DNA of 64,000 bases from Cylicocyclus nassatus (Eukaryota > Nematoda > Chromadorea > Rhabditida > Strongylidae), in contig CATQJL010000223.1 in assembly GCA_958299035.1 (NCBI GenBank), forward strand, positions 69,423,006-69,487,005. Reading direction: 5' to 3'. A model generated the notes under the pieces. The model was not told where the DNA came from. It saw only the letters and a program-made list of their open reading frames with translations, and did no database searches. A program made the position numbers and the translations under genes. Position 1 is the first letter of the stretch. Every line of letters starts with the position of its first letter. Of this stretch, positions 670-17,123 are shown piece by piece.

Positions 670-3474
670 CTACTCTGGTGTCTCATCCGCCGGGTCAGTC
701 TCTTCAGGATCTCTCCCCTTGCGTGAACGGCGAGTGACGAACGAGATAAAGATTTCTTTTCTCCATAAATGTTCCACAGGGGTTTTGTGCCGGAGCTCAG
801 TGTCATACTCGTTGAACTTCCGACGGATTCTGTCGCGCCTTTCAACTACCCTTTCCCCTTTCAACTCTGCCTCTGTCAACGCGTTTAGATGCATAGTCGA
901 CATCGACACATAGAGGTAGTAGGTTTGCGGCGGTCTGAAAAGTAGGTTGAATCGGTGCTACTTGTTATCATAAAAACAATACAGGCCTCCTTACAGGAAA
1001 AGATTTTTTGGGCAGTATAATCTGTCCAAAGCGTTCTTGGTCTCGCACTGGCTAGTTCCACTCAGAGAACTTTCACTCGATATCCTTTTGGAAGACCCGG
1101 TTGAGTAGAATCTCGCGCAGTTTTTCGTGGGCTGGGCTTCCCAAGGGTATTATGGGCTTCCTACCTTCTCCATCAACTTCAAGCGCGTCGTGGGAACATC
1201 TCCTAATGGGCCCGGTGATGTCAGCCTATAATAAATTTTTATGCGGTGTTAGATGACGTATAGTGTTACCTCATCCCATTCGTGTTTGTCGGCCACGTGA
1301 TTTAGGCAACTATTGAACAAGTACTTTGCGTAGTTGCCATCACCGGCAAGCGCTCCTTGTTCAACGGCATAATATAAGTGTTTTTTATGGCTCTTATCCA
1401 GTCCTTGATCACCATGTAGACCCTTCTCTTCGCAACCTTGATTCGAATGATTGGTTTTTGTCGACAGATCCCGGTTGCTTACCGCGTGAAGATTTTTGTC
1501 GAGGTATCTGGCCAGATGCCACCTATCCAGCTTCCACTCGATGGTCTCCCCATATTCATTCTTGTACGACTTGATCTCCTTCCCAAACACTGCGCTGCGG
1601 TCGGTTGCTACCGAACGGATGGGTATTTCCCTTGACTTGAACCACCGCAGCATTCTGCGGAAGCCCTCCTTTTCCATTCTTTGACTGATGTTATCTGCAA
1701 AAGAAAACTCGGGAATGATTGTGTCGGCTTTTCTACCTACCTGTCTCTGAGCGTTCTAGGACTTCCGTGTGTATGCAGAGTTTGGTCCTGAGATCCACAG
1801 CCAGTACCTTGCAAAGCTCTGCACTGTGGCCTCTCGAGTCATACGCGCCGTCTACGGCAATATCCCACGGATCGTTCTGAGTTAGTTTCAAAAGATTTCA
1901 GTTATTTTTCTTGTTGTTTTTACACCTGGTAGACCGCCCTTATCTCATCAATGATGCGGTTCGGGTGCCTTTCGTAGACGGCCGCGATGCACGGCGTTAC
2001 TTCTTCAAACCGATCTTTGTACGTGGACATAGATGATAGGACTAGCCCCATTTCTGAAGCCCACTGCCGCAACTTCTGAAATTTTTGTTTAGAGTTGAGG
2101 CGACCGGGAAATGATATCTTTTTTTACATTCATGCGGACTCCCGTAGTTGTAGCCGCGATACACGCCAACGCGTTGCCGGTGTAGAGCTTGTCGATACGA
2201 CCTGGGCTGATCTTTTCCTGCCCTTCCCATCTCTTGATTTGTGGCTTTATGCCCTTGGTGACGTATTGAATGATGGGAGTGGAACCGTTTATCGACAGGC
2301 GAACCCCGGTTTCACTAATCTCACAGTCGCATCGAGTGAGGAAAAACAGCTCTAGGAGCTTCCTTCCTTGCACCACGAAGTACTTATCCAGTAGCTCCAA
2401 ATCGGTTTCTTTGAGAAGCTGATCTTCACTCTCGTATCCGGACAGTTTTTGTGGTGTGTAACAGGAGCCGCTCTGAAACACCAATCTACTCATTTCTTCC
2501 ATGTTGGCCTGTGAACGAGACGATCTTGGGTTTATTTGCGCTAACCGATGCTTTTTGAGGAGATGTGGAAGTTGTCTGTTTGGACGGTGTGTTGTAGCCT
2601 TCACCAGCGATGGGCGCTGTATTGGTATCCATTTGCATATTCTCAACTACTGCACTGCTTCTTGGCTCCACCGCTCTCTAAACATTTATTTATCTGCTTG
2701 TCGTCTTATTTGACGGGACGCTTTGTGTAGCTGCTTTTTCATTTTTCCTCTATAATTTCGTGCTAATTTTCGCCTGACTTTTCATCAGCATGAAAATTAG
2801 CATTTTTGGGCTTTGCTACTTCGAAAGTGTGCATCACACAAAGCGCGCTCGAGTGGTGGCGGTTGCATATGTTGCATTTACCCACTTGCACTTCGGTCTG
2901 CTCTTCGTCTGCTTCGAATCCTTGCAGGTTGTTCCACCTACCCTCCTTGCTATAGTATCTTTTCATGTAGAAATTTACATACTTTCCTACATCCGGGGCG
3001 GCAATAGTGATGTTATCCTGGCAATTTTCATATGAACAACTGGAAACATGAACGATTTCAAGACTAACTTCTCTTGCAATTGTTCTGATTGCGGTGTTCA
3101 AGCTGCTTGGAATCTGCGCAGGAATGTCTCCGTCATTGACGTAAGCGATACCTTCGGCCGTTTTTGACAAACCTCCACCGCTTACAACAATCTCTGCTAA
3201 GAGATATTGTGCCTACATGATAGAGAATTAGTTTGTCACTGATTTGCGGAGCTGCACTCACAGTATTAAGGAAGTGACTGATGCATACATATCTTCCTTT
3301 GATGTCAAAACCTTCATAACAGTTCCTCAGTACTTCTTGCGTGGTCGATGTGAAAAGCTTGAGGAGAGAAAGGAAAATTCTGTTATGCACTTTGACATGT
3401 GACGTGCGTGTCGCAAAACAGGTCTTGATTCTGCTTCCACAAAGGAAGCAAAGACACGTATTCGCCTTTACCAT
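670..3474 (-). CDS. DDE-type transposase-like gene with N-terminal THAP-like zinc finger; one apparent frameshift
   Basis: Likely a cut-and-paste DNA transposase or a gene derived from one; superfamily uncertain (Kolobok- or P-like by the THAP association only). The chosen start is the ATG at 3474-3472, which follows a CTTCAG acceptor. The first exon encodes CFLCG...YVCISHF, a C-x2-C...C-x2-H THAP-like finger. Introns with GT..AG ends fit at 3261-3213, 2127-2076, 1925-1877, 1740-1695, 1269-1226 and 994-935 (44 to 60 bp). The central exons join into DGAYDSRGHSAELC, then VATDRSAVFG and LDRWHLARYLDKNL, which supply candidate catalytic Asp residues, then CLNHVADKHEW and RRCSHDAL. The C-terminus has LSGTSQCETKNAL and STMHLNALTEAE. 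A +1 or -2 shift near 1083, just after FQKDI, is needed to join the last two blocks, so the gene may be dead or contain a sequence error. The joins between exons in the 2820-2480 stretch are unclear. Confidence 0.72.
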
Positions 3475-4740
3475 AGTTGAAACTTGTAGCCTGAAGTTTC
3501 TTACATTCTCAGCTTGTACAACTTTTCTATTTCGAAATATCACGCCAAAGTCTGGAAATCATCACCATACAATTAATAAATTTGAAGTATTTATATATTT
3601 TTATTTCTGCTGTGATTGGTTTGGAGATGTAATTTATCTATCTCGCTTGTTTTCAGAAGGCTTCCGATCTTGGAGAGGTTGGCGTCAGCTGTAGAACGTT
3701 CCCTGGAATGCGGTCCTCATTGTTTTCATCGTTTTCGTCATGTCAGTCTCAATCATTGTTGCTATCCATTTCCCGCAAGCAATTCGACCCTATAGTTTTT
3801 CGTAACCCGAAAGTCATATTTTATTCCACACGCTGTTTCAAGACTTGGCTGTTGACTTATCATGTTGTGCTACGTTTACAATGTTCATCCCACGTGTAAT
3901 TCGCATTTGACAACTACGGTAAATGAGCCCCGGTGCACCGGGCATGTTGTTATCTTTTGTCTTTGTCTTTGATAAACACATAATTGGCAATCAGTTTATT
4001 TTGTAATCTTAAATTTTCCACAACAACAGTGAAAAAAGTTCGTAGCAACTGCGAATCTTGGGGATGCCATGACATGCACAATTATTTTTGATTCAACTGG
4101 CCGCATCAAAAAACATGGCGAAGTAAATGAGATTGCTGAGCATCAAAAGAAACGGTCGAATAAATAGAAGCAACAACGTAGAAGAGAACTTTGAAGGCAT
4201 GCCAAGCAGAAAACAGAAATGTAGTAAGCAATAGAACATGCGTATCAACCAAATATTTGAGCGATCCATATATAAGGCGATCGATTCGGATAAGCAGCAA
4301 TGGGTTCCGACTGTTATTTCTACTTGCGAGGAAATCCTAAAAACAAAATCTAAGGGCTTATTAAACCCGAGCGAACACTGATGTGATAACTTACTGTCAA
4401 AAATTTGAGCGAAAGGTCTGCCAACAAGAGTTCATGTGACTGTGAACAAGAAAGAGCCCTTTTTCTCTTTTTAGCATAATGTGAACATCTAAAAACAAAA
4501 AATCTAAGCCTTTGGTGGATTCTAGTTGGTGTGAGAGTATTAGCAGACAAATGTGAAATAGACTAACTGTGTCCAGGCCTGTAATTTCCACCTTATTCCT
4601 CCTTATTCGAACTTCAGGCCTCTTGCGGGGAAGCGACAACATTGACGAACTTGCAATAGCAACAATAACCTGAAACATTCATTATAATTACATTCGTGGT
4701 TTACAATTGAGTACCTCGTATTCACTTAATTCAACAAACA
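3475..4740. other. No supported feature
   Basis: Upstream of the transposase gene. A+T-rich sequence with scattered short open frames on both strands and no recognised motif, repeat or terminal inverted repeat. Confidence 0.4.
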
Positions 4741-4824
4741 CAAACGAACAAACAAACAAACAAACACATACAGACACACACACGCACACATACACATACA
4801 AATACACATACACTACACAAACAC

Positions 4825-4855
<31 letters not shown>

Positions 4856-4907
4856 TACCATACACATACACAAACACATACACATACACATACACAAACA
4901 CATGCAC

Positions 4908-4944
<37 letters not shown>

Positions 4945-4975
4945 AACACATACACATACACACACAAATTAGATT
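4741..4975. repeat. (ACACAT)n / (ACAA)n microsatellite
   Basis: About 235 bp of tandem ACACAT hexamers interrupted by ACAA units. The alternating purine-pyrimidine tract produces long spurious open frames of Cys/Met/Val or His/Ile/Thr on the two strands; these are not genes. Confidence 0.97.
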
Positions 4976-5922
4976 ATAAATGCTTACTATAGATGAACAC
5001 AATCTCACATTAGAACATACAGCAACATAAAATAGAAAACCACACACATAATGACTGAAAACAACCTATACTACAATAGAAGTAAGGCGAAACAGCCATA
5101 ATGCACCCATCATATCACTACTAACTATTTATTACCTTGTGAATATTGCACGAAGGAACACGATTTACATATGTGCGAGTGAGCAGGGAGAGGGGGTCCA
5201 TACAAACACAAGCAGGACGAGAACACTAAATACAAATAAGCTAAGGTTTCAGAGATCCTCACTAGAACGGAGAAAACAGCAAGAGGACGACGCTAATGTA
5301 TTCAAGTGGAAGAACTTGCCTTGTAGTAGTGCCAGAGCTACTATTCAAGTGAGCAACACTGGAAACAAGGCCGTTACGCATCTGTTGTACAATGAGAACA
5401 CCTGAAAATACAAAAAAATCTTCAAATACTGTCGAAAAACATGAAATCTCTGCAAATATTTCACCAAGCACCGTTATTGATTGGGTGCCTACGAAGCTCC
5501 ACGTTACGCGCGCTCTTCGTATGCCGTTCAATTGCGCACTTTGGGGAAATCAGTGAAGGGGCGTGCCAGGTGGAGTGGGTGTTTTAGGTGGACTTTTCGG
5601 ACGTGCTTTCTTGTGTTAGTGTGCGTATTCGCGAATGGGGGGTGGACTTGCGGGCTTCTTAGGGGGACTACTATCGGACGCCATCTCATTGAAATATATA
5701 TTGAAATATATTGAAATCTCATGAAGGCTCATTTTGCCTGTCCACTGCCTTTAATTGCGTTTAACTCTCGAACTTACCAATGCTAATTCATGACAAAGGC
5801 ACCTCTATTAAGAGAAAGGTTTCCTCTTTCATACAAAAATAATTTTGAGAAAAATCGTTGAGAAGAAAGGGAGTTATGATTTTTAATCTGGCGCAAGAAC
5901 TTTTGCACCCACCTAATATATA
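4976..5922. other. No supported feature
   Basis: Unremarkable A+T-rich sequence between the microsatellite and an inverted repeat. A short stretch at 5690-5720 repeats TTGAAATATA two to three times. Confidence 0.4.
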
Positions 5923-6614: not shown

Positions 6615-6745
6615 AGTAGGGTAGTTAAAGCAAAACTAGCCTACGACAAAAGCTTGAACTACAAATATGAACAGTTAAGAAATAGGTCATACATAGACGT
6701 CACTATCATTTAAACAACAAAAAAAACCAAACATACAATAACATA

Positions 6746-7997
6746 CTATGAATTAGGTTGGAACCGCTGTACAGGTCTTCTCGTTCTGCTCGATCTTCGA
6801 AGCGTTGTCGGCGGCGTGGACGGCTCGTGGCTTGATGTCGACGTCGATGTCGCTGAATCCATGGGTGCTGACGCATCGCTCGCGATCGCTTGCTCGGAAT
6901 TCTCATCAGCTGCACTGCCATTCCTCTGTAGAGTGTCGTCTTCTGTCAAAACATCTAAGAGTATCTTCAATGCTTCGGACTGTTGTTGGAGTTGCTGGTG
7001 TACGGCGAGCTGTTCACTGTCGCTTCGATGTCGTAGCTGATTTGCGTGCTTCTTGCAGATTTCATTGCCAACCATTACTTCGTAGTTGACAGGTCCTATA
7101 CGTTTCAACACGGTTCCCTTCATTCAGTGAAAGTGGGGTGGCTTCCGCTGCTTAGCGTACACTAAGTCGCCAACTTCGAAGTGTTTCCAAACGACTCCAT
7201 GTTTCGTATCAAATTTTTCTTCCATGCGTTCTCTTCTTCTTCGTGCGACTGGATCTTCGGCATCTTCTGACATTGGTAGTAACAGGCTTAGTCTTGTACG
7301 CAAGTTTCTGCCCAAAAACAATTCTGCTGGTGTCTTGTCGTTCAAGTTCGTGTTTGGTGTTGTCGTATACGCTTGTAATACCACATTTATAGTCTCTTCT
7401 GTTGGCCTCTCCTCCCCCTCTAGTTTCTTGATCCCGCGTTTGTATCAACGAAACGCTCTGCCTGTCCGTTCGAGAGGGTGGTATAGAGCAGTCCTTATGT
7501 GTATGATTCCATCTTCGTCACACATCTTCTTGAACAAGTCCGACGTGAACTGAGTACCGTTGTCGCGCCTTCACCGTTTTCGAAGCCGAGATATTGCTCA
7601 TCTCAATCATTTCAGGCCATTTGCTGCAGGCATCTACCACGCCCAAGTAGAAAACTCCTTGCATAGGTCCAGCGAAGTCGATGTGTATCCTCTGCCACAC
7701 TCGAGTCGCGGATGGCTATGCTTCTAATAGTACTTTCGTCGGATTTTTGGCTAATTCCTGATAATTCGTACATTTTCGTACCAAGTCTTCGCAATCTTTG
7801 TTAATATTCGGCCAGTAGACGTAACTTCGAGCTAATTTCTTCATCCTTACAATCCCTGGATGACCACTATACAGTTCTCTTAGAACATTTTTTCGAAGCT
7901 CCTTGGGTATCACAACCTTTTCGGCTGACATCAGACATTGCTCCACGACTGACAATGTGTCTCTTCGATTTCGAAAATGTGCCAACTCCCCATCCAC
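6746..7997 (-). pseudogene. Integrase region of the Ty3/gypsy element
   Basis: Integrase inserts the cDNA into the genome. Fragments in different minus-strand frames give SGHPGIVRMKKLARSYVYWP with downstream Cys from the HHCC zinc-binding domain (7716-7997). The next fragment has RIHIDFAGP and VVDACSKWPEM, containing the first catalytic Asp (7518-7700). Near 7440-7560, in another frame, lies an NGQAERF block containing the catalytic Glu. C-terminal pieces follow at 7124-7384 (TRLSLLLP, VWKHFEVGDLVYAK) and 6746-7123 (KGTVLKRIGPVNYEV, an SH3-like tail motif). The second Cys pair of the zinc domain appears altered, and at least three frame changes are needed to read through. Confidence 0.85.
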
Positions 7998-8361
7998 GTC
8001 TGATCATTCTCCTTTCTTCTGTCAGTATTCTTCTTAGCACTGGATCCTACTTCGTATAGGACTGCACATCTGATACCGTCACTGGCAATTTCCTTATGCA
8101 GTTCTTCAATATGAAGTTCACGTCGTTCTCAACGGCAGCTATCACGACGTCTTCTTCGTTATTCTGACTCTTCTTCATCAACCGTGACAAGCCATCTGCT
8201 TGTCCAAACTTCGTAGTCTTGACATACTCTATGTCAAATCATATCCAAGCAGTATTGTAGCCCATCTCATAAGTCGGTTAGCGGAGTAGACTGGAACTCC
8301 TTTCTTATCACCGAAGATGGCTAGCAATGGTTGATGGTCCGTCAGAAGTAAAAACTTTCGT
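7998..8361 (-). pseudogene. Degraded RNase H / connection segment of the Ty3/gypsy element
   Basis: This part links the RNase H remnant to the integrase. I read short matches in shifting frames (for example a KQHMDGELAHF-like junction near 8000) but no continuous frame. It is best treated as decayed internal pol sequence. Confidence 0.55.
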
Positions 8362-9090
8362 TCAAATATGTACTTCAGGAATTTCTTGATTGCCTCCATC
8401 GGCATACCTTTGCGATATCACACAACCGATACCATAGCCACTAGCGTCCGCTGCCACGACTATCTTCTGCCTTGGATCATAGTGAGCAAAGTTTAGCTCA
8501 CTCGACAAAGTCTCCTTGAGCTTTTCGAACGCTTCTTGATGTGTTCGTGTCCATTCCCACTTCGCATCTTTCTTGAGCATTGCGCCCAATGGCCCACGAA
8601 GATCCTTAATCTTTGGCATGAACGCCGCATAGTACGTTATCATGTCAAGAAAAGCTCTCATTTGGTTCGCATTCTTCGCTCATCCATATTCTTCGGTTCG
8701 TCCATATTCTTGATTGCTTCAATCTTCTCTGAGTTCGGTCTTCTGCCGTTTCGATTTACTATAAAGGCAAGATATCCTTTCTCTGGCTTAGCGAAAGAAC
8801 ACTTCTCTAGACGAATCCTGAATCCATATTCGGCTATCCTTGCAAAAACAGCAAGTAGATTCTCCACCTTTCTTCTTCGGTTCTTCCACAGACCAAGATG
8901 TCGTCTAGGTAGGTTGCTACCCCTCGCAGACCATTCACCATCTTGTTCATGATTTGCTGGAAGATCTCTGATGCTGTCTTTATTCCAAAAGACAGTCTAT
9001 TGTATTGGTACAATCCTCCATGCGTGTTTATCACAACCATTTTCTTCGCTTCTTCTGACAACTCGATCTGCAGATAGGCGTCCTACAGAT
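8362..9090 (-). pseudogene. Reverse transcriptase and RNase H of the Ty3/gypsy element
   Basis: The 8834-9061 frame holds the polymerase palm with ATYLDDILV (YLDD catalytic box), preceded by YNRLSFGIKTASEIFQQIM. 8658-8867 continues with RLEKCSFAKPEKGYLAFIV. 8362-8661 gives the connection and RNase H start (MITYYAAFMPKIKDL, then KIVVAADASGYGIGCVIS with the RNase H Asp). The three frames are adjacent and collinear but shifted against each other, with a short tandem duplication encoding an NMDE-type repeat near 8690. Non-functional. Confidence 0.88.
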
Positions 9091-9939
9091 CTATCTGCGA
9101 AAACACTGTACCTCCGTTGAAAGATGCGAATATATCCTCCGGCAATGGCAACGGGTAATCATACGACTCCAGCGCTTTGTTGAGTCCAGTGAGAAGTCAG
9201 CACACACTTTTAACTTCCCATTCGCTTTCCTGACACATACGATGGGAGCTGCCCATTCGCTATGCGTCACTGGACTTATGACCTTCAGTTCCCATAGCCT
9301 GTCGAGCTCCTTTTCGACAGCTTCGACCGCAGCATAGCGGACAGGCCTGCAAGGCTTGAACACTGGGCGAACGTCCTCGTCAACTATGTGTGCTTTCTCC
9401 TTCGTGCACAATCCCAATCCTTCTTTGCAGACCTCCGGGTAAGCTTCTTTCAGCTTCTGAGCGATAACTTCGTGTTGTCCCAACTTTACTTCAGCAGCCA
9501 TCCTGCTCAAGTGATACGACATTTCTTCGTTTTTCTGAATCCATTCCAGTCCTAGCAATGAGTTGTGGGGCGTCACATATGCGTAGCCTTCGCTCCTAGA
9601 ATTTTTGATCTCGTAATTGCACCATAGCTTTCCATGAACCTTCATGTAGCCTCCACTGGCATTCTTGACGACCACGTTCGTGTTCTCTAGCCGAGGAGCA
9701 CCCATGCTCCTCCATATTGATTCGTTTAACAGTGTGACGTCTGATCCAGTATCCAACAGAAGGCTAACTAAATGATTATTCACTTTTGCTTCGATATACA
9801 TACTTGTCGAGTTGACATCCACCATCGCATTCGCAATCTTCGCTATGCCGTGCACATGACGTTTTGGTTTCGTCCAACTTGTGTTCTTACTGGTGTCGCT
9901 GCTTTCTGTGGATTCTTCGTTTTGAATCTTGCTGAACAA
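9091..9939 (-). pseudogene. Protease and N-terminal reverse transcriptase of the Ty3/gypsy element
   Basis: A 282-codon minus-strand frame, the longest in the window. It contains LLLDTGSDVTLL, the retroviral-type aspartic protease active site, then a linker. The N-terminal reverse-transcriptase fingers follow: VISPVTHSEWAAPIVCVRKANG and KLKVCADFS. The frame is lost right after ADFS, where the palm should continue. Confidence 0.88.
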
Positions 9940-10864
9940 GTGCTTTCTTCTCCGCCACTTGTTCGCAATACTTCTCCTTGTGACCTGTCTTCTTGCACTT
10001 CTTACAAAACCACTGCTTCACCTTGCATTCCCTGGCAAAGTGAGCTTTACCACAGTTCCAGCACTCCAGCTTCGTGGGTTCCTCCTTGCTTGTTGCTACG
10101 ACAATCTTCGCGAAACCAGCTACAGTCTCGCTGTCTTTCTTGAGACTGAGGAAGTTTTCGCACTCCAAGTACAATTGGTGTAGCGACATTTTTCGTCCAG
10201 CTTTGTATTCCTTGTCCAGCACGGCGATGAGTCGCTGCTTGATTTCAGCTTCTTTTTGGCTTTTCAGGCCAAATATCTATAGCAAGCATTTGATCCCATC
10301 GCTATCGAGTTGTGGAATCTTCGCTTTCTCGCACAATTCGTTTACTCTTCCAGTGTACATGAGGTAATCTTCGGCGTCGTTCTTTTGCAGCTTTAAGCAC
10401 TGGTACCTCATTGTAAATTTGGAGATCTTTACGTCGAATAATTGCTTTAATGTTTCGACGGTTTTTTCGAACTTTATCGTAGTCACTTCTTTCGGTAGCA
10501 TATGTCTCTGATATTTTTCGAAACATTCCTTCTCGAGCTTTTCGCAAAGAAGCCTCACTCTGGCACCCTCTGGCAGCTGCTTCGCATCTTCGACAAAGAC
10601 TTCCTTGTAGCGCGTGAACCATTTACTGAAGCATTCGTCCGCTTCTGGATCGAAGTAGAATTTTTCGATCCGGTTGCTCAGCGCGGACATCATGTTCGGA
10701 ACTTCCGACGACGTACTGGGCTGTCCAGTACCTGCGGTATGCTTCAGAAACGTCTCCATCATTTCTTGCCTCTCTTCTCCCATCATTTTCCTGAGGCTCT
10801 TCTGGTTTTCTCTGATTAGTTCCTTGAACACAATCATTAACTCCTCTGTGCCTATTTTCGCCAT
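9887..10864 (-). pseudogene. Gag with CCHC zinc knuckles
   Basis: The capsid part is 10,277-10,864, 195 codons starting MAKIGTEELMIVFKELIREN, with a coiled-coil-prone N-terminus and the FEKYQRHMLPKE / TVETLKQLFDVKISKF capsid-like helices. A stop near 10,277 separates it from 9887-10,222, which carries two knuckles: C-x2-C-x3-H-x4-C (CWNCGKAHFAREC, one residue short in the middle) and C-x2-C-x4-H-x4-C (CKKCKKTGHKEKYC). Gag packages the element RNA. The 9887-9939 end overlaps the protease frame, as is usual for gag-pol junctions. Confidence 0.87.
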
Positions 10865-10920
10865 TTGTAAACACTCCAGCTTTCAAGATTTCGTCTCCCT
10901 GCAGCTCCATCTGACTGCTA

Positions 10921-11240
10921 TTAAAGCTTCTCCCAAAGTTAAAAATGAAAATTATGAAAATTTGTCCAATTTGGACGTGGTAGAAACATGGGTTCGAAAT
11001 TTCGGCGATTCATTGATCACAAGAGTAAGCTACATACGAATATGACTGCTAGAAAGAGGAAGAAAAGCTGAATCGGATAGTGCTTGAAGCGTTTCTCTAT
11101 CTTTGCTGCAATTGCTTTTATGATAGGCTGAAAAAACGGCAAGAACTTGAAAAATGAAAAATGAAATTGAAAAATGAAAAATTGAAAAATGTGGGTTTTT
11201 AGTTTGTGCATTAACAAGGACATACACAACAATTTTTGTT
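10921..11240. other. Junction between Ty3/gypsy and Penelope-like elements
   Basis: No gene. 11,150-11,200 has a short degenerate GAAAAAT repeat. This is where the missing 5' LTR should be; no LTR-like sequence was found. Confidence 0.5.
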
Positions 11241-11257
11241 CTCAATTTGAACACCAT

Positions 11258-11331
11258 CCGGTTTCGGGGCTAAGAACTATACCGGTAGTGCAGCTTCCTT
11301 GGTGCCCCTCATCAGTAGTTCCCAAGGAAGC
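11258..11331 (-). ncRNA. Hammerhead-ribozyme core in non-standard strand order
   Basis: Read 5' to 3' on the minus strand: stem I 5' GAACUA (11,321-11,316), CUGAUGA (11,315-11,309), stem II 5' GGGGC (11,308-11,304), linker, stem III 3' CCGGU (11,285-11,281), A17 (11,280), stem I 3' UAGUUC (11,279-11,274), UUA, stem II 3' GCCCC (11,270-11,266), GAA (11,265-11,263), stem III 5' ACCGG (11,262-11,258). All consensus positions are met: C3-A9, G10.1-C11.1, G12-A14, A15.1-U16.1, C15.2-G16.2 and H17=A. A 10-bp helix GCTTCCTTGG / CCAAGGAAGC (11,331-11,322 with 11,302-11,293) brackets the first segment. The order is I-II, III-I, II-III, not any of types I to III. It sits about 170 bp downstream of the Penelope-like frame. 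Such elements are known to carry hammerheads. Activity is not shown. Confidence 0.6.
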
Positions 11332-11499
11332 CTCAAAACTTTGACTAAAGAGGTAACTTACAGAATTTGAATCAAACAAAAACAAGAGAGCATGAAGGTA
11401 AATGGAGATGAAAGGACTACATAACACTGACACGAACATCGAGTGACCTGGCAATTGATTGCAACCTCATATTCGAATAAGTATTATCCCGCCATAACC

Positions 11500-11761
11500 T
11501 CAGAGCGCGCTAGCTGTATCCCAAGTATTTCGCAATTTGTATATAAGTGGTAAGTGTATAACTGTGGCGAATCCATATTTACGCATTATATATGGCCTAT
11601 CAAGAAATACATGGTGAAGTTTGCTCACAAAAATATTATATTCCCATCCATTATTCTTCGTCGTCGTAGCTAGTTCTATGATTCCTTCTTTAAATTTTGT
11701 ATAATCTGAGCAATTTCTATATATTCTGAGTATTTCCGTAGTACAAGTATTGAACAATATA
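11500..11761 (-). pseudogene. Reverse transcriptase thumb / C-terminus
   Basis: Beyond MITE A the minus strand continues with TCTTEILRIYRNCSDY and FKEGIIELATTTKNNGWEYN, matching the thumb region of Penelope-type polymerases. It ends near 11,500. No GIY-YIG domain follows within the next kilobase, consistent with an N-terminal or missing nuclease. Confidence 0.75.
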
Positions 11762-12444
11762 CAGGGTGTCCGTAAAGTATGTATACACTGTTTGATCGTT
11801 AATATCTCTCTTCCCAAGAAATCTTTTGCCTTGCTTCAGGGACCATTTTGTAGAGCTGGCTTCAACTTAAATTTGCAGTATAGAGCGAATCGTCCATCTT
11901 TCTCCTTTATTGTAGGATTACGGTGGAAACTTCAAAGAGGGTTTTGGGCCATGAAAGGCCATTTTTTGCCCCAGAAAATAAAAAAAAAAGCAGCCTGAAA
12001 ACTTGTACACTAGGCTGATTAGAGTTGCTGATTCTAACTGTAAAGTTCCCAGCTTATTGCGATGCTTCATCGAAGAGTTATGCCAAGTAAAAGGTAGCGG
12101 CCATTCTTTCAATGTTCCTAAAAAGTGCTTTTGCACCGTTTAGAAAGCTTCGCAATCTTGTGAATAGTTGAGTATTGAACTCAGCGTTTATAAAAACCCT
12201 ATTACACAAGTTTTCACATTATTTTGAAAAATTTTGAAACGGCAGCTTTTTTCACATTGACACCATATGTTTCAAGTTTCTACCGTAATCCTACAGTAAT
12301 AAAGAGAGATGGGTGATTCGTTCTATATTGCAAAACTAAGTTGAAGCCAGCTCTGCAAAACGGTACCTGAAGCAAGGCAAAAGACTTCTTGGGAAAAGAG
12401 ATATTAACGATCAAGCAGTGTATACATACTTTACGGACACCCTG
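11762..12444. mobile_element. Mariner-type MITE A (683 bp)
   Basis: Flanked by TA at 11,760-11,761 and 12,445-12,446. Ends are CAGGGTGTCCGTAAAGTATG and its complement, and the inverted homology continues inward for hundreds of bases. It shares TTAATATCTCTCTTCCCAA with the other two copies. No transposase frame, so non-autonomous. Inserted in the thumb region of the Penelope-like element. Confidence 0.92.
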
Positions 12445-12889
12445 TATATCTCGGTATATTAGATCTTCATTGTGGGTATCTAGTGAGCTTGAAATTATAC
12501 GCATCTGTCTTATTATACATATTAAATTTGATCATGTTCTCGCAAACTATCATGTTCAAGTCAAGAAAATTCGTTTCGTTCAGACTAGCGTTGGTCTTAT
12601 CTATTTCTAAAGTTGAAGGATATGTTTCTTTTAAACTTCTTTCGAACTCTGATGCATTATTAGAGACGTGCAGTATGTTATCTATGTATCTATAGGTGAA
12701 ATTATATAAGGTAATGTTATGGCCTAGCGTTCTTGTTAGCCTCTTCATGAATTCGTATTCCATATATGCTAATGTAAGGTCTGCCATTTGAGGACTGCAC
12801 GAAGCACCTTGAGGTATTTCCTTTATCTGTCTGTAAATAACACCACCAAAAAATAAGTAGCTGGACTCTAATAGAGAATCGACCATATA
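12445..12889 (-). pseudogene. Reverse transcriptase palm, second part
   Basis: Between the two MITEs. It contains GVIYRQIKEIPQGASCSPQM (motif with PQG), then NFTYRYIDNILHVSN, where the catalytic Y-x-D-D box reads Y-I-D-N, a change expected to weaken or abolish metal binding, and FLDLNMIV further on. A frame change follows FKLTRYPQ. Confidence 0.85.
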
Positions 12890-13566
12890 CAGGGTGTCCC
12901 AAAAGTAAGTACACACTTTTCAATCGTTGATATCTCTCTTCCCATTGGGTCTTTTTCCACCGTTCAAGTACCATTTTGTAGAGGAGGCTTCAACTTAGAT
13001 TTACGGTAAAGAGCGAATCACCGATCCTTCAAATTACTGTAGGATTACGATAAGAACTTCCAGCATGTGGAACCATTGTGGAATATGCCATCCGACAAAA
13101 TTTTCTCAAAAAATCTGAAAAATCGTGTACTAGGGTTTTCGCGCACGCCGATTCCGTTACAAAACTTTTTATGAGTGTTTTTAGCTTTTCTGACAGTGTA
13201 ATTACAGTTTCGACAAATGCTGGTAACTCGGTTATTACGGTTTACCTGGGATAACTTAAAAAAGAAACATCAGAGTCAAGTGGAAGTTTCATTTTCGAAA
13301 TCAGCGGCTTCCACTACCATAGTATAAGAATTTTTGGCTTGTTTGGTTTTGTTCCGAGGCAGAATATGGCTTGCAACGGCCTAAAATCCTTGTCGAAGTT
13401 CCTACAGTAATCCTACGGTGACGAAGAGCGATCGGTGATTTGCTCGATATTGTAAATCTAAGTTGTAGCCTCCTCTACAGGATGACATTTAAACGGCTGG
13501 AAGAGACCCATTGGGAAAAGAGATATTAACGATTGAAAAGTGTGTACTTACTTTTGGGACACCCTG
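12890..13566. mobile_element. Mariner-type MITE B (677 bp)
   Basis: TA duplication at 12,888-12,889 and 13,567-13,568. Termini CAGGGTGTCCCAAAAGTAAG and complement, with long inverted arms and a unique centre. It interrupts the reverse transcriptase palm. The sequence is related to MITE A but clearly diverged, so the two insertions are separate events. Confidence 0.92.
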
Positions 13567-14012
13567 TATATTACATCTTCAACTTGATAATAATGACCTT
13601 GTGTTAAGTTTGAGCTAGCATATGTGTCTTTATTGCCATGCACTTTAATGTATTTATAACCTTTCATACATAAGCTTATAAGCTTTTTAAGGTTTGTTCT
13701 TACAATATTATGTGGCAAACTTGTAAAAAGACTAGAGAAGTCGGCCGAGTACACTTCTAGGCTACCTCGAGCTGTCGCCAGTTCCTTCAACACTTGGCTA
13801 CTATTTTCTATAGCCCAAAAATGTTTTATTTTGGATCTTTGCCAAATAACTTTGCAGTAAATGTAGAAATGCCTTCTTATATGGGCAAGTATCAGCTGTA
13901 GTAATTTACTTAAGGGTTTCAACGTACTTCTTTTAGCGCCAGTGATGAATCTAAACTTAATCGGTGTTTTGTGCATTTTTGGAATGCCATAAATTCTAGG
14001 GATTAAACTACA
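13567..14012 (-). pseudogene. Reverse transcriptase fingers/palm, first part
   Basis: Reads IPKMHKTPIKFRFITG, the Penelope-type motif (PK.HK.P.K.R.I), then SLEVYSADFSSLFTSLPH. The latter holds the first catalytic Asp of the palm, in the context usual for Penelope reverse transcriptases (D-F-S-S-L-F). The frame runs into the mariner-type MITE B, whose sequence makes up the last residues of the open frame. Confidence 0.82.
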
Positions 14013-14917
14013 TTAATCTAAAAAATTATTGTTTAAACTATTAAGAATTCTTTTGTGTTTCAAAAGGACATCGTTCTCACTAAGTCTAGTTGATACGTAA
14101 GTATATTCACTCAAAGCCGACTGTTTCATTTCTTTCTTCATCATATGTAAATAGAATTTCTTGCACGTGAAACTATAATTTGAAGTGGCTTTATCTATTG
14201 GAGTTATGATAAAATGTCTTTGTAGCTTTCTTAGAACTTCTACGTCATATTTGTCATAGTCAATCTGTTCTGGATCATACATGTTGAACAATTTCGTTTC
14301 AATTTCTTTCTTGATATATTCACATAATTCATTTGTAAGTTGGACTCTAACGGAAGAGCTAGCTTTGTATTTTCGAACGTACTTGACTGCTAATTGTAAA
14401 CTCAAATCGTTTGTCACTTTTTTAATGTCGCCTTTAGTAATCACCGTATGTGTTCTGTACTTCGTTCCTCTCTTGAAAATAGATTTCAGTTTTTCGTTCT
14501 GTATAAAATCCAGATTTCCTGTGCAAACATGTTTGTGGTAATTATCAACAAAATCGTTGTATTTTTTACACTCACATTCTTGTTCCTCTATGATTTTCAT
14601 TGTAGAATCATTAAGATTTCTGAGAAAGCTGTTATAATTGAACATTTCCAGACCTACTGGCTTTCTCAAATTGTATCGTATCGATACCTTAATATTGTTC
14701 AGTTTATCTGCGTCTTGCATATTAATAGTTTCTTTAACCTTCTTTTAATTCTTGTACTATTACATACCTTGCGCAGTTCGAGCTTATCCAATATTTCACC
14801 TAGGTAAGGTATGGTTATTACTATTTCTTCTTGTTTAACTTTCAGTTTATCCTTTCTTTCCCAAAATGGTGTAGCAAGCAATGCATAAATCTTATACTTA
14901 TGTTCAAACGATAACAT
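14013..14917 (-). pseudogene. N-terminal region of the Penelope-like reverse transcriptase
   Basis: 14,917-14,699 includes ITIPYLGEILDKLELRKV, a helix-turn motif often found beside GIY-YIG modules in these elements. 14,720-14,013 (235 codons) has ECECKKYNDFVDNYHKHVCTG, TKGDIKKV and then HFIITPIDKATSNYSFTCKKF. The D-K-A/G segment is a Penelope family hallmark. The frame ends at a stop just before the polymerase fingers. Confidence 0.75.
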
Positions 14918-14949
14918 TGTAAAATTAGGAGTGAAAGTTTAATCTATCA

Positions 14950-15394
14950 GCCTCTATCAGCCTTGAAATATCTTGCTTGCTTAGTTTTCGAAAATAAACA
15001 AAAAGATTGTTACCCTGTAAAGTATTTATTGCAGTCAAAACTTCTTCTCTGTCAGGACATTCACTTTTTTTTAGACATGTTATCATATAGATCACATTTT
15101 TCGGATCGCAGTTTGAAGTTGCTGTCTTGTTTGTTTTGAAGTAGTAATTCGTTGTTGAGCTTTTAACAAGACTAGTGAAGTTGATTTTTCACATTAATGG
15201 CACTTCTTTCTTTGACATTTACTGCCCGTGTAGCTATTCGATTCTGGATTATTCACAATCCTAAGCCGGTGTCCTCTATAATTATTTGCAGACGCGGACA
15301 ACACGGAACATTCATTCAAATGACTTGTCTGAATTTTGTTGTTGGACCTTAGATCCGTCGAGTTCGAGGCGATCCTTCCTAAACTCTTATGCAA
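14950..15394 (-). pseudogene. GIY-YIG-like endonuclease remnant, N-terminal
   Basis: The frame 15,394-15,194 ends GSKCQRKKCH. After a shift of frame the sequence continues through NCDPKNVIYMITC (about 15,113-15,072). The Cys cluster followed by N-V-I-Y-x-I-T-C is the start of the GIY-YIG domain of Penelope-like elements. I could not see the following YVGxT or the downstream R..H motif, so the nuclease is incomplete here. Its place upstream of the reverse transcriptase on the same strand is what suggests a permuted element; a chimeric join of two copies is the alternative. Confidence 0.55.
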
Positions 15395-15409
15395 TTTCCT
15401 TTAGGAGGA

Positions 15410-15530
15410 GTATTTTCCTCCAGGGCTAGAGCAAGCCTTTTCATCGCTGGGGAGCGTTACCCGTGATGCAAACTGCATCGGATAATCCGCGCCCAACACC
15501 ACGCCAGGGTTCTCCCGAACTATCTTGTGT
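15410..15530. other. Hairpin-rich block at the 5' end of the Penelope-like element
   Basis: Several short perfect stems lie in a row: GGAGGA..TCCTCC (about 15,401-15,421), GGCT..AGCC, GATGCA-AAC-TGCATC (15,463-15,477) and GGATAATCC. The block is GC-rich in an A+T-rich setting and lies just before the first coding remnant, where a structured 5' leader would be. It lacks the hammerhead core. An HDV-like fold was considered but not established. Confidence 0.4.
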
Positions 15531-15879
15531 ATTATTCTCTTATTTATTACCTTAGCACAGCGATAAGTTAATAAATGCTAGTTTCCCCTTCTAAGATGTA
15601 CGATTAATTTATGTGATCGCTTCAAGTATGATTCTTAGTGTTGAAACTATGGTTCTTAAATTCTTATTATCTTTTAACAATATGTTTACATATGTTATAA
15701 TTTAGTTACCGCTAATTTATCTATCAATTACTTCTTTAGAAAAGTTAACTATCTATAATCTAATGTCCTTAAATTAATGTAACATGGACCATCTGCATAT
15801 GTACAGGTCAACGAGTTTCCGGTTGTCATAACGTGCAGGTAGCCACAAATTATTGATATTTTTCACGCCAAAACCGCAT

Positions 15880-16130
15880 GAAGACCTTATGTCTCCTCTT
15901 ACTCTTAATGCAAGAGGGTGGCTGGCAGATAATGTCCTGAAATGTAGTGGAGAAAGTTCAATAAAATATTTGCGGTTTACTTACCACCTGTTAAACCTTA
16001 CGTCTCTTCCTGCTCTTAATGCAAGAAGAGTGACCGCTATAAATCTCCACACAGGGGAAATATGAATCTAATTTTATAATCTCTCCATCTACTGCCTTAT
16101 GTCTCCTCCTACTCTTAATGTAAGGGGGAT
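15880..16130. repeat. Three hairpin-forming repeats with a shared loop
   Basis: Three copies begin CCTTAYGTCTCYTC near 15,889, 15,998 and 16,093, spaced about 95 to 110 bp. Each has a conserved CTCTTAATG centre flanked by complementary arms whose sequence differs between copies (CCTCTT/AAGAGG in the first, CTCTTC/GAAGAG in the second, CCTCC.../...GGGGG in the third). Pairing is largely kept while sequence changes. Confidence 0.5.
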
Positions 16131-16661
16131 GGAGGGCTAATTAAAGTTCGTGACTACTCACAGTTACGAGACCAACTTTGTTGAATATTTAGCTCTTAGT
16201 ATTTATTTGTAGTTATTTTTCACAGTTACCAAGCTAGCCCTCCCAGGCACACATACATTTTACTCCTGTGTCCACACCTACTCTAAATGAAAATTTGTAA
16301 TAGTATTTAATTAGTGTCCTTATATAACTACTAAGCTGTCGTAGTTCTGTAGTGAAAAGTTCAAAAGGCTGTAATTAAGATCTACGTATTAAATTTATAT
16401 CCTTCTAAGAGGAAATAGACAAGGAGCCGGAAATGGGTATCTCTGAGGTGGCCACCTCCGTAAGTAAAGTTAATAGATACTTGCAAAATAAGTAAATTAA
16501 CATATTATGTGAACGATTGAGCCTACTTAATCTTTTGGTTGGAGCCACTAAGTGAAAATAAATAGTGTAAAAAAAAACGCAGTATTTTAATCGATTTTAC
16601 AACTTTTCAAAGATTGAACTAAGTCATGGGATTTTTGGGATTTTGAAGGTCAACGGCAAAA

Positions 16662-16745
16662 TTTATCTCTTAGTCTAGGAATCAATCCCAGGTCTGGCAG
16701 TTAAGAGGCGCGTTCTCTACGCATTAGGCTATGAATCACACGCAT
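16662..16745 (-). repeat. tRNA-like sequence 1
   Basis: On the minus strand, TAGCCTAATGCG resembles an A box and GGGATTGATTCC a B box, about 45 bases apart, with CTCTTAA in the anticodon-loop position. The arms do not pair well enough for a working tRNA. It shares CTGCCAGAC with copy 2. Probably tRNA-derived, as in SINE heads. Confidence 0.45.
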
Positions 16746-16917
16746 GGTTGAGATTTCACGCAGCGTATGCTACATTTACTTGCTAAATTTACTTTGTTCT
16801 ATACTATATAGCAAAATAGTTATGTACTATGTTGCACAATATGCATATTAATAACAAATCCTACTTTGCTCAAGTAATGGACCAATTAACGAAGTTTAAC
16901 TCAAGTAACGCTGTACA

Positions 16918-16998
16918 TGTTTTGCGGCCTTGGTGGAGAACGAACCTGAGTCTGGCAGCTAGGAGTCAATTCCTCTAACCACTAGACTACTAAGCCAC
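16918..16998 (-). repeat. tRNA-like sequence 2
   Basis: TAGTCTAGTGGTTAGAG (good A-box match) and GGTTCGTTCTCC (B-box-like) on the minus strand, with CTGCCAGAC between. The T arm does not pair, so not a functional tRNA. About 250 bp from copy 1 and in the same orientation. Confidence 0.5.
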
Positions 16999-17123
16999 TG
17001 ATTGACTTATTGAGAAACTGTGTTGATGTTACTTTATTTATTTTATATCTGAGCATACGTAAGAATCTAATGGCTATTGCAGTGCTTAATACGCTACCAG
17101 CTAACAATCATACTTGGATGTAA

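Follow-up and report, generated by a model that had tools for sequence, protein, structure and literature searches.

The 80-nt block at 11331-11252 on the minus strand of the window, the 64,000-nt stretch of Cylicocyclus nassatus DNA analysed here, is very probably a hammerhead ribozyme of type CSG that belongs to a family of Penelope-like retrotransposons (PLEs). Six orders of the hammerhead blocks C, G, and S were named by Eckert, Friedrich, C.E. Weinberg, and Z. Weinberg in 2023 (PMC10085705, cited throughout from part of its text). Types I, II, and III of the older naming correspond to CGS, GSC, and SCG, respectively, and SGC, CSG, and GCS are crossing orders (PMC10085705). Type CSG was described from two similar sequences obtained by pattern search, CSG-1 and CSG-2, which cleave in vitro at the expected site at rates of 0.004 and 0.026 per min (PMC10085705). 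The evidence for natural type-CSG ribozymes was graded as weaker by the same authors because few covariation events were seen (PMC10085705). An earlier note on the window had taken the layout found here to be undescribed; that claim does not stand, as the layout had been named type CSG in 2023 and its cleavage in vitro had been shown (PMC10085705).

Arrangement of the probable ribozyme block

Read along the minus strand, the block starts with GCUUCCUUGG (11322..11331), the 5' strand of a clamp helix by which stems I and II interact and which is paired in the minimum free energy (MFE) fold. This is followed by the 5' strand of stem I, GAACUA (11316..11321), assigned from the sequence and the alignment of copies, by block C, CUGAUGA (11309..11315, with N7 at 11311), and by the 5' strand of stem II, GGGGC (11304..11308). 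A single A joins GGGGC to the 3' strand of the clamp, CCAAGGAAGC (11293..11302), which forms a 10-bp helix with GCUUCCUUGG, and UG joins CCAAGGAAGC to CACUA (11286..11290), the 5' side of an extension of stem III. Block S (11274..11285) consists of the 3' strand of stem III (CCGGU, 11285-11281), A17 (11280), and the 3' strand of stem I (UAGUUC, 11279-11274). The linker UUA (11271..11273) joins stems I and II and leads into block G (11258..11270), which is made up of the 3' strand of stem II (GCCCC, 11270-11266), GAA (11265-11263), and the 5' strand of stem III (ACCGG, 11262-11258). After a bulged A at 11257, the block ends with the 3' side of the stem III extension (11252..11256), which reads UGGUG in the window and UAGUG in the consensus.

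The block order in the window is C, S, G, and every block is uninterrupted. Both CUGANGA and GAAA with the A15.1-U16.1 pair were present in the window and in the subfamily consensuses. The earlier note had placed every hammerhead part at these minus-strand positions and had described crossing stems in a pseudoknotted layout. Both statements were confirmed, with the block order being C-S-G and the clamp helix being present.

Specificity of the match

A descriptor that demanded 5 bp in stem I, 4 bp in stem II, 4 bp in stem III, and a complete core, allowing all six block orders, gave exactly one match in the window, which was the present site with type CSG; the descriptor thresholds were chosen after the finding had been seen. 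The same descriptor gave no match on either strand of 1500 first-order Markov windows, and a relaxed six-order form of it gave no further match elsewhere in loci L001-L065. The Rfam hammerhead models gave no match at the gathering threshold in the window or in seven long loci, and no Rfam hammerhead family appeared up to E 10 within 11100-11500.

A Selenomonas genome matched a 19-base pattern, but the descriptor found no hammerhead there and the match was taken as chance. Viral contigs gave no match to a 22-base pattern. A peptide pattern derived from the reverse transcriptase (RT) alignment matched 53 stretches in the viral contigs, none of which was confirmed.

Copies of the block in the host genome

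A 274-base query compared with the 515-Mb host genome yielded 554 first-look candidates, of which the best 40 were scored. Because these best 40 were chosen for their resemblance to the window copy, the conservation counts are biased upward, and families with diverged ribozymes would be missed. The 40 copies comprise the window copy, its near-identical duplicate (L047), and 38 others, and longer stretches were taken around 17 of these 38 (the long loci). Counts given out of 39 exclude the window copy and counts given out of 40 include it.

The core and stems I-III were intact in 19 of the 40 copies, namely the window, the duplicate, 10 of the 17 copies with upstream similarity to PLE coding sequence, and 7 of the 21 without such similarity. 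Of the 40 copies, 21 had a mismatch in stems I-III or a defect in the core, and 8 had a core defect or G at H17. C3 was changed to U in three copies (L009, L035, and L037). Over 39 copies, N7 was T in 30, C in 6, A in 2, and a gap in 1, and the other six positions of CUGANGA had the consensus letter in 36-39 copies. The place of H17 was occupied by A in 36, C in 2, and G in 1 of the 39, and both copies with C17 have C7. The linker bases U, U, and A were kept in 38, 37, and 38 of 39 copies, respectively.

Fold and covariation

The nested MFE fold of the window block contains the clamp hairpin and the extended stem III (z -2.49), and 1 of 200 shuffles folded as well or better. Stem III had been given 5 bp in the earlier note. 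Those pairs are present, but the real length of the stem is 10 bp, with CACUA and UAGUG pairing past the bulged A. For the consensus strands of stem III, the energy was -12.7 kcal/mol with 10 bp as compared with -6.6 kcal/mol for the 5-bp part. An outer UUUGA/UCAAA closure is also seen in the window, but it was not counted as part of the block because it is not fully kept in subfamilies A and B.

Pairing across copies was evaluated with alignment A2, which holds 27 of the 40 copies in 26 distinct rows. In these rows, 98.0% of the cells of stem I, 95.4% of stem II, 96.9% of stem III, and 94.2% of the clamp were paired, and 95.5% of 800 cells were paired overall; these figures are raised by the omission of near-duplicates and some broken copies. 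Two-sided changes were observed in 3 of 31 pairs (in the clamp, stem III, and the stem III extension). Stems I and II had none in the 26 rows, so that the compensatory changes in all three stems for which the earlier note had asked were absent from these two. As many as 3 two-sided changes were reached in 22 of 500 shuffles, and a structure slid by one column also gave 3, but it paired only 42% of the cells. Covariation is weak and was not counted in favour of the ribozyme; the pattern across copies is near-invariance.

The host Penelope-like element

The block lies in a broken Penelope-like element at 11181..17096 on the minus strand, the ends of which were inferred from where other copies cease matching. 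The 3' end of the element is ~70 nt past the block. The element is interrupted by insertions at 11761-12445 and 12889-13561 and has lost most of the GIY-YIG region near 15072/15073. A fragment of the RT remains at 12467..12919 (minus strand), whose match to RVT_1 has an E value of 9.6e-6 and a score of 25.9 bits, short of the curated threshold of 29.6. Two reading frames at 13548..14744 (minus strand) hold N-terminal and RT-proximal coding fragments, in which no Pfam family scores above the cut-off. The position just downstream of Penelope-like coding sequence, as the earlier note had described it, was borne out.

In locus L050, a GIY-YIG frame (2557-3435, E 5.4e-8) stands immediately upstream of an RT frame (3436-5289), which matches RVT_1 above the curated cut-off (E 1.6e-7), and the ribozyme block then follows at 5630-5722. 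The GIY-YIG and RT coding regions share one reading frame and are separated by a single stop codon at 3433-3435. RT pieces were detected upstream of the block in 14 of the 17 long loci; L054 and L061 had no PLE protein match, and L062 matched only an unrelated inserted repeat. PLE protein similarity was found upstream, on the same strand and within ~1.1 kb, in 17 of the 38 copies and downstream in none, and it mostly stopped 160-200 nt before the block. In 21 of the 38 copies, no PLE coding sequence was present in the ~1 kb upstream of the block.

The element has 26 protein relatives, Pristionchus names among them. Nine of the 26 were scanned, and an N-terminal GIY-YIG domain was found in seven, three of which have RVT_1 downstream of it. 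No solved structure matches the RT of the element by sequence. Judged from its domains, the element is most probably Penelope-like with RT and GIY-YIG upstream. PLEs of the Naiad/Chlamys type reportedly have GIY-YIG before RT, as Craig et al. are said to have described in 2021. The present element resembles them in domain order, with GIY-YIG lying upstream of RT in L050 and in the protein relatives.

Each of the 17 long loci has one ribozyme block; a second one in a pLTR or at the 5' end was looked for and not found. In L050 and L052, no repeat of at least 25 nt joins both ends, and the copies may be 5' truncated.

Several other features were observed in the neighbourhood. The region ~6700-10900 of the window (minus strand), directly downstream of the PLE, contains coding fragments like those of an LTR retrotransposon (DUF7083 gag-like, aspartyl protease, RNase H, and integrase zinc-binding domain). 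The stretch 9658-11591 is repeated ~25.7 kb away on the same contig with 99.9% identity (L002, L047), so that the duplication took in both the ribozyme and the beginning of the adjacent LTR-like element. Five loci (L024, L025, L026, L029, and L044) share flanks outside the PLE, all with stem mismatches or deletions, and appear to represent a PLE tail carried inside another repeat. In L050, three copies of a double-hairpin module, CCYYCTTRCATTAAGAGYARGARGRGACATAAGGTCY, lie at 1820-2070 with spacings of 101 and 113 nt; a TATA-like TATATATAAG follows them closely, and the GIY-YIG frame lies downstream. Compensatory stem changes were seen by eye in the CCYYCTTRCATTAAGAGYARGARGRGACATAAGGTCY module, one copy of which is located near 15893 of the window (minus strand).

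Conservation of the block across subfamilies

Twelve of the 17 long loci were sorted into subfamilies A (L050, L051, L059, and L060), B (L052, L058, L063, and L064), and C (L053, L055, L056, and L057), with L049, L054, L061, L062, and L065 being left out. The three consensuses (n=4 each) are the same over the 80-nt block except for N7, which is T, T, and C, respectively. Mean identity between groups was 92-94% in a 93-nt block, whereas it was 39-52% in the preceding 80 nt and 42-48% in the following 57 nt. Farther upstream, identity between groups was 67-75% at 165 to 80 nt before the block and 71-83% in the coding slices at 700 to 165 nt. It was 53-62% in the slice at 900 to 700 nt, which has insertions in several copies. 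Within groups, identity was 93-97% in the block and 71-90% in the immediate flanks.

The substitution rate per site over the 40 copies was 0.20 at N7, 0.075 at H17, and 0.00-0.06 in the other classes. The CUGANGA-plus-GAA core without N7 had a rate of 0.022, which is not below that of stem I (0.019), and our confidence in the ribozyme reading was slightly reduced because of this. The stem sequences are more strongly conserved than hammerhead pairing needs, suggesting that they have a further role, for example in binding the enzyme of the element. Recombination that moves one ribozyme module among the subfamilies would also give the apparent conservation of the block.

Proposed mechanism and alternative explanations

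In the mechanism that we propose, two hairpins would form first. Hairpin A would consist of the 10-bp clamp with I5'-CUGAUGA-II5' as its loop, and hairpin B of the extended stem III with A17-I3'-UUA-II3'-GAA as its loop. The two loops would then pair via stems I and II to give the predicted pseudoknot, and the hammerhead core would arise at the contact. The RNA would cut itself between A17 (11280) and U (11279), a site that is predicted because CSG-1 and CSG-2 cleave at the corresponding predicted site. The genomic copies run ~100 nt beyond this site, and therefore the template RNA was uncut there, or cut only in part of the pool. Cleavage is probably partial or controlled. It is our guess, with perhaps an even chance of being right, that the element's own RT recognises the 3' end of the element RNA by this fold and that cleavage takes part of the transcripts out of use. 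For a PLE from a lizard, insertion in vitro did not require hammerhead cleavage, according to the part of PMC11167929 consulted.

As an alternative, the earlier note offered a type I hammerhead (GAA-ACC-GGAU-GGU) that has decayed and whose loop II holds a second, spare cleavage strand. The window copy itself has ACC-GGAU-GGU, and AUAGUGUUC downstream in other copies looks like a cleavage strand. Among the 37 readable copies of the 40, however, the place of H17 in the type I order (C, G, S) is G in 34, and the closing triplet reads AGU in 28 copies and GGU in only 5, both of which contradict this alternative. Moreover, in the usual form, GGAUAGUG, pairing with CACUA, by which stem III is lengthened, accounts for UAGUG. 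The decayed type I hammerhead was rejected, as the family consensus has G at the H17 place, and we regard it as extremely improbable.

Two other explanations accept the parts of the block but differ in how they act. The pair of kissing hairpins may be a recognition site of the RT only, with an inherited core whose catalysis is no longer, or never was, relevant. The conservation of stem sequences beyond the hammerhead requirement, the near-terminal position of the block ~70 nt from the end of the element, and the reach of the genomic copies past the cleavage site would all fit such a site. Pairing alone, however, leaves unexplained why the core outside N7 and H17 is nearly invariant and why the subfamily consensuses differ by N7 alone, and we consider a purely recognitional role unlikely. 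Alternatively, the pieces may act between molecules or tandem copies, with C and G of one copy meeting S of the next, so that the ordinary order is restored as in dimeric PLE hammerheads. Minimal PLE hammerheads can reportedly act as dimers, to go by the title of a report by Lunse et al. in 2017, and ACCGGU is a palindrome. PLEs are also frequently tandem (PMC11167929, in the part consulted). Nevertheless, the single block in each of the 17 long loci argues against action between copies, inspection by eye of the 130 nt after the block showed no second start of an element, and the clamp and the extended stem III favour self-folding of one molecule. We consider such action very unlikely.

For the type-CSG ribozyme itself, a wider interpretation is offered tentatively. 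The CSG hammerhead may be the resident ribozyme of an animal PLE lineage with an upstream endonuclease, maintained by selection as one 80-nt unit close to the 3' end that serves as a self-cleaving switch and an RT recognition structure, in contrast to ribozymes paired in pLTRs that release RNA of unit length. We hold this interpretation to be plausible, although somewhat short of probable.

Relation to known hammerheads

The present block is like type CSG as described in the consulted part of PMC10085705 in its block order, the presence of all core bases, the crossing of stems I-III, and the helix joining stems I and II. The likeness described here is one of layout, and in contrast to CSG-1 and CSG-2, which are two sequences (PMC10085705), the present block forms a genomic repeat family in a retrotransposon. 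The cleavage products are similar in size, being 48-49 and 29 nt with flanks for CSG-1 and CSG-2 (PMC10085705) and expected to be 52 and 28 nt for the present 80-nt block. CSG-1 and CSG-2 may themselves derive from such elements. In the main text of PMC10085705, the word 'nematode' does not occur, and 'penelope' and 'retrotransposon' occur once each, in the reference to Lunse et al. The block also shares with type SGC (the HRIMA-1 motif) a non-circular permutation, a helix between stems I and II, a linker that is typically three nt long, and a perfectly conserved stem I, whereas the order there is S-G-C and the sequences came from searches of metatranscriptomes, metagenomes, and RefSeq (PMC10085705).

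Listings of open-licence papers on permuted hammerheads, PLE hammerheads, and nematode-retrotransposon hammerheads showed none that reports the present family. PLE hammerheads are said to be usually minimal, a description attributed to Cervera and de la Pena in 2014. In common with the known PLE hammerheads, as described in the consulted parts of PMC6155905 and PMC11167929, the present block is a hammerhead in a PLE and lies by an untranslated part. The known ones have the ordinary order and are located in pLTRs (PMC6155905, PMC11167929), whereas the present one is permuted, occurs once per locus, and lies near the 3' end.

The setting seems new, being a type-CSG repeat close to the 3' end of a Penelope-like element whose GIY-YIG domain lies upstream. 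That the block is far better kept than its flanks across subfamilies provides a different kind of evolutionary evidence for the CSG layout, and the family supplies many natural variants, both intact and broken. It places a permuted ribozyme in a large animal-like genome and in a class of retrotransposons whose ribozymes have no settled role.
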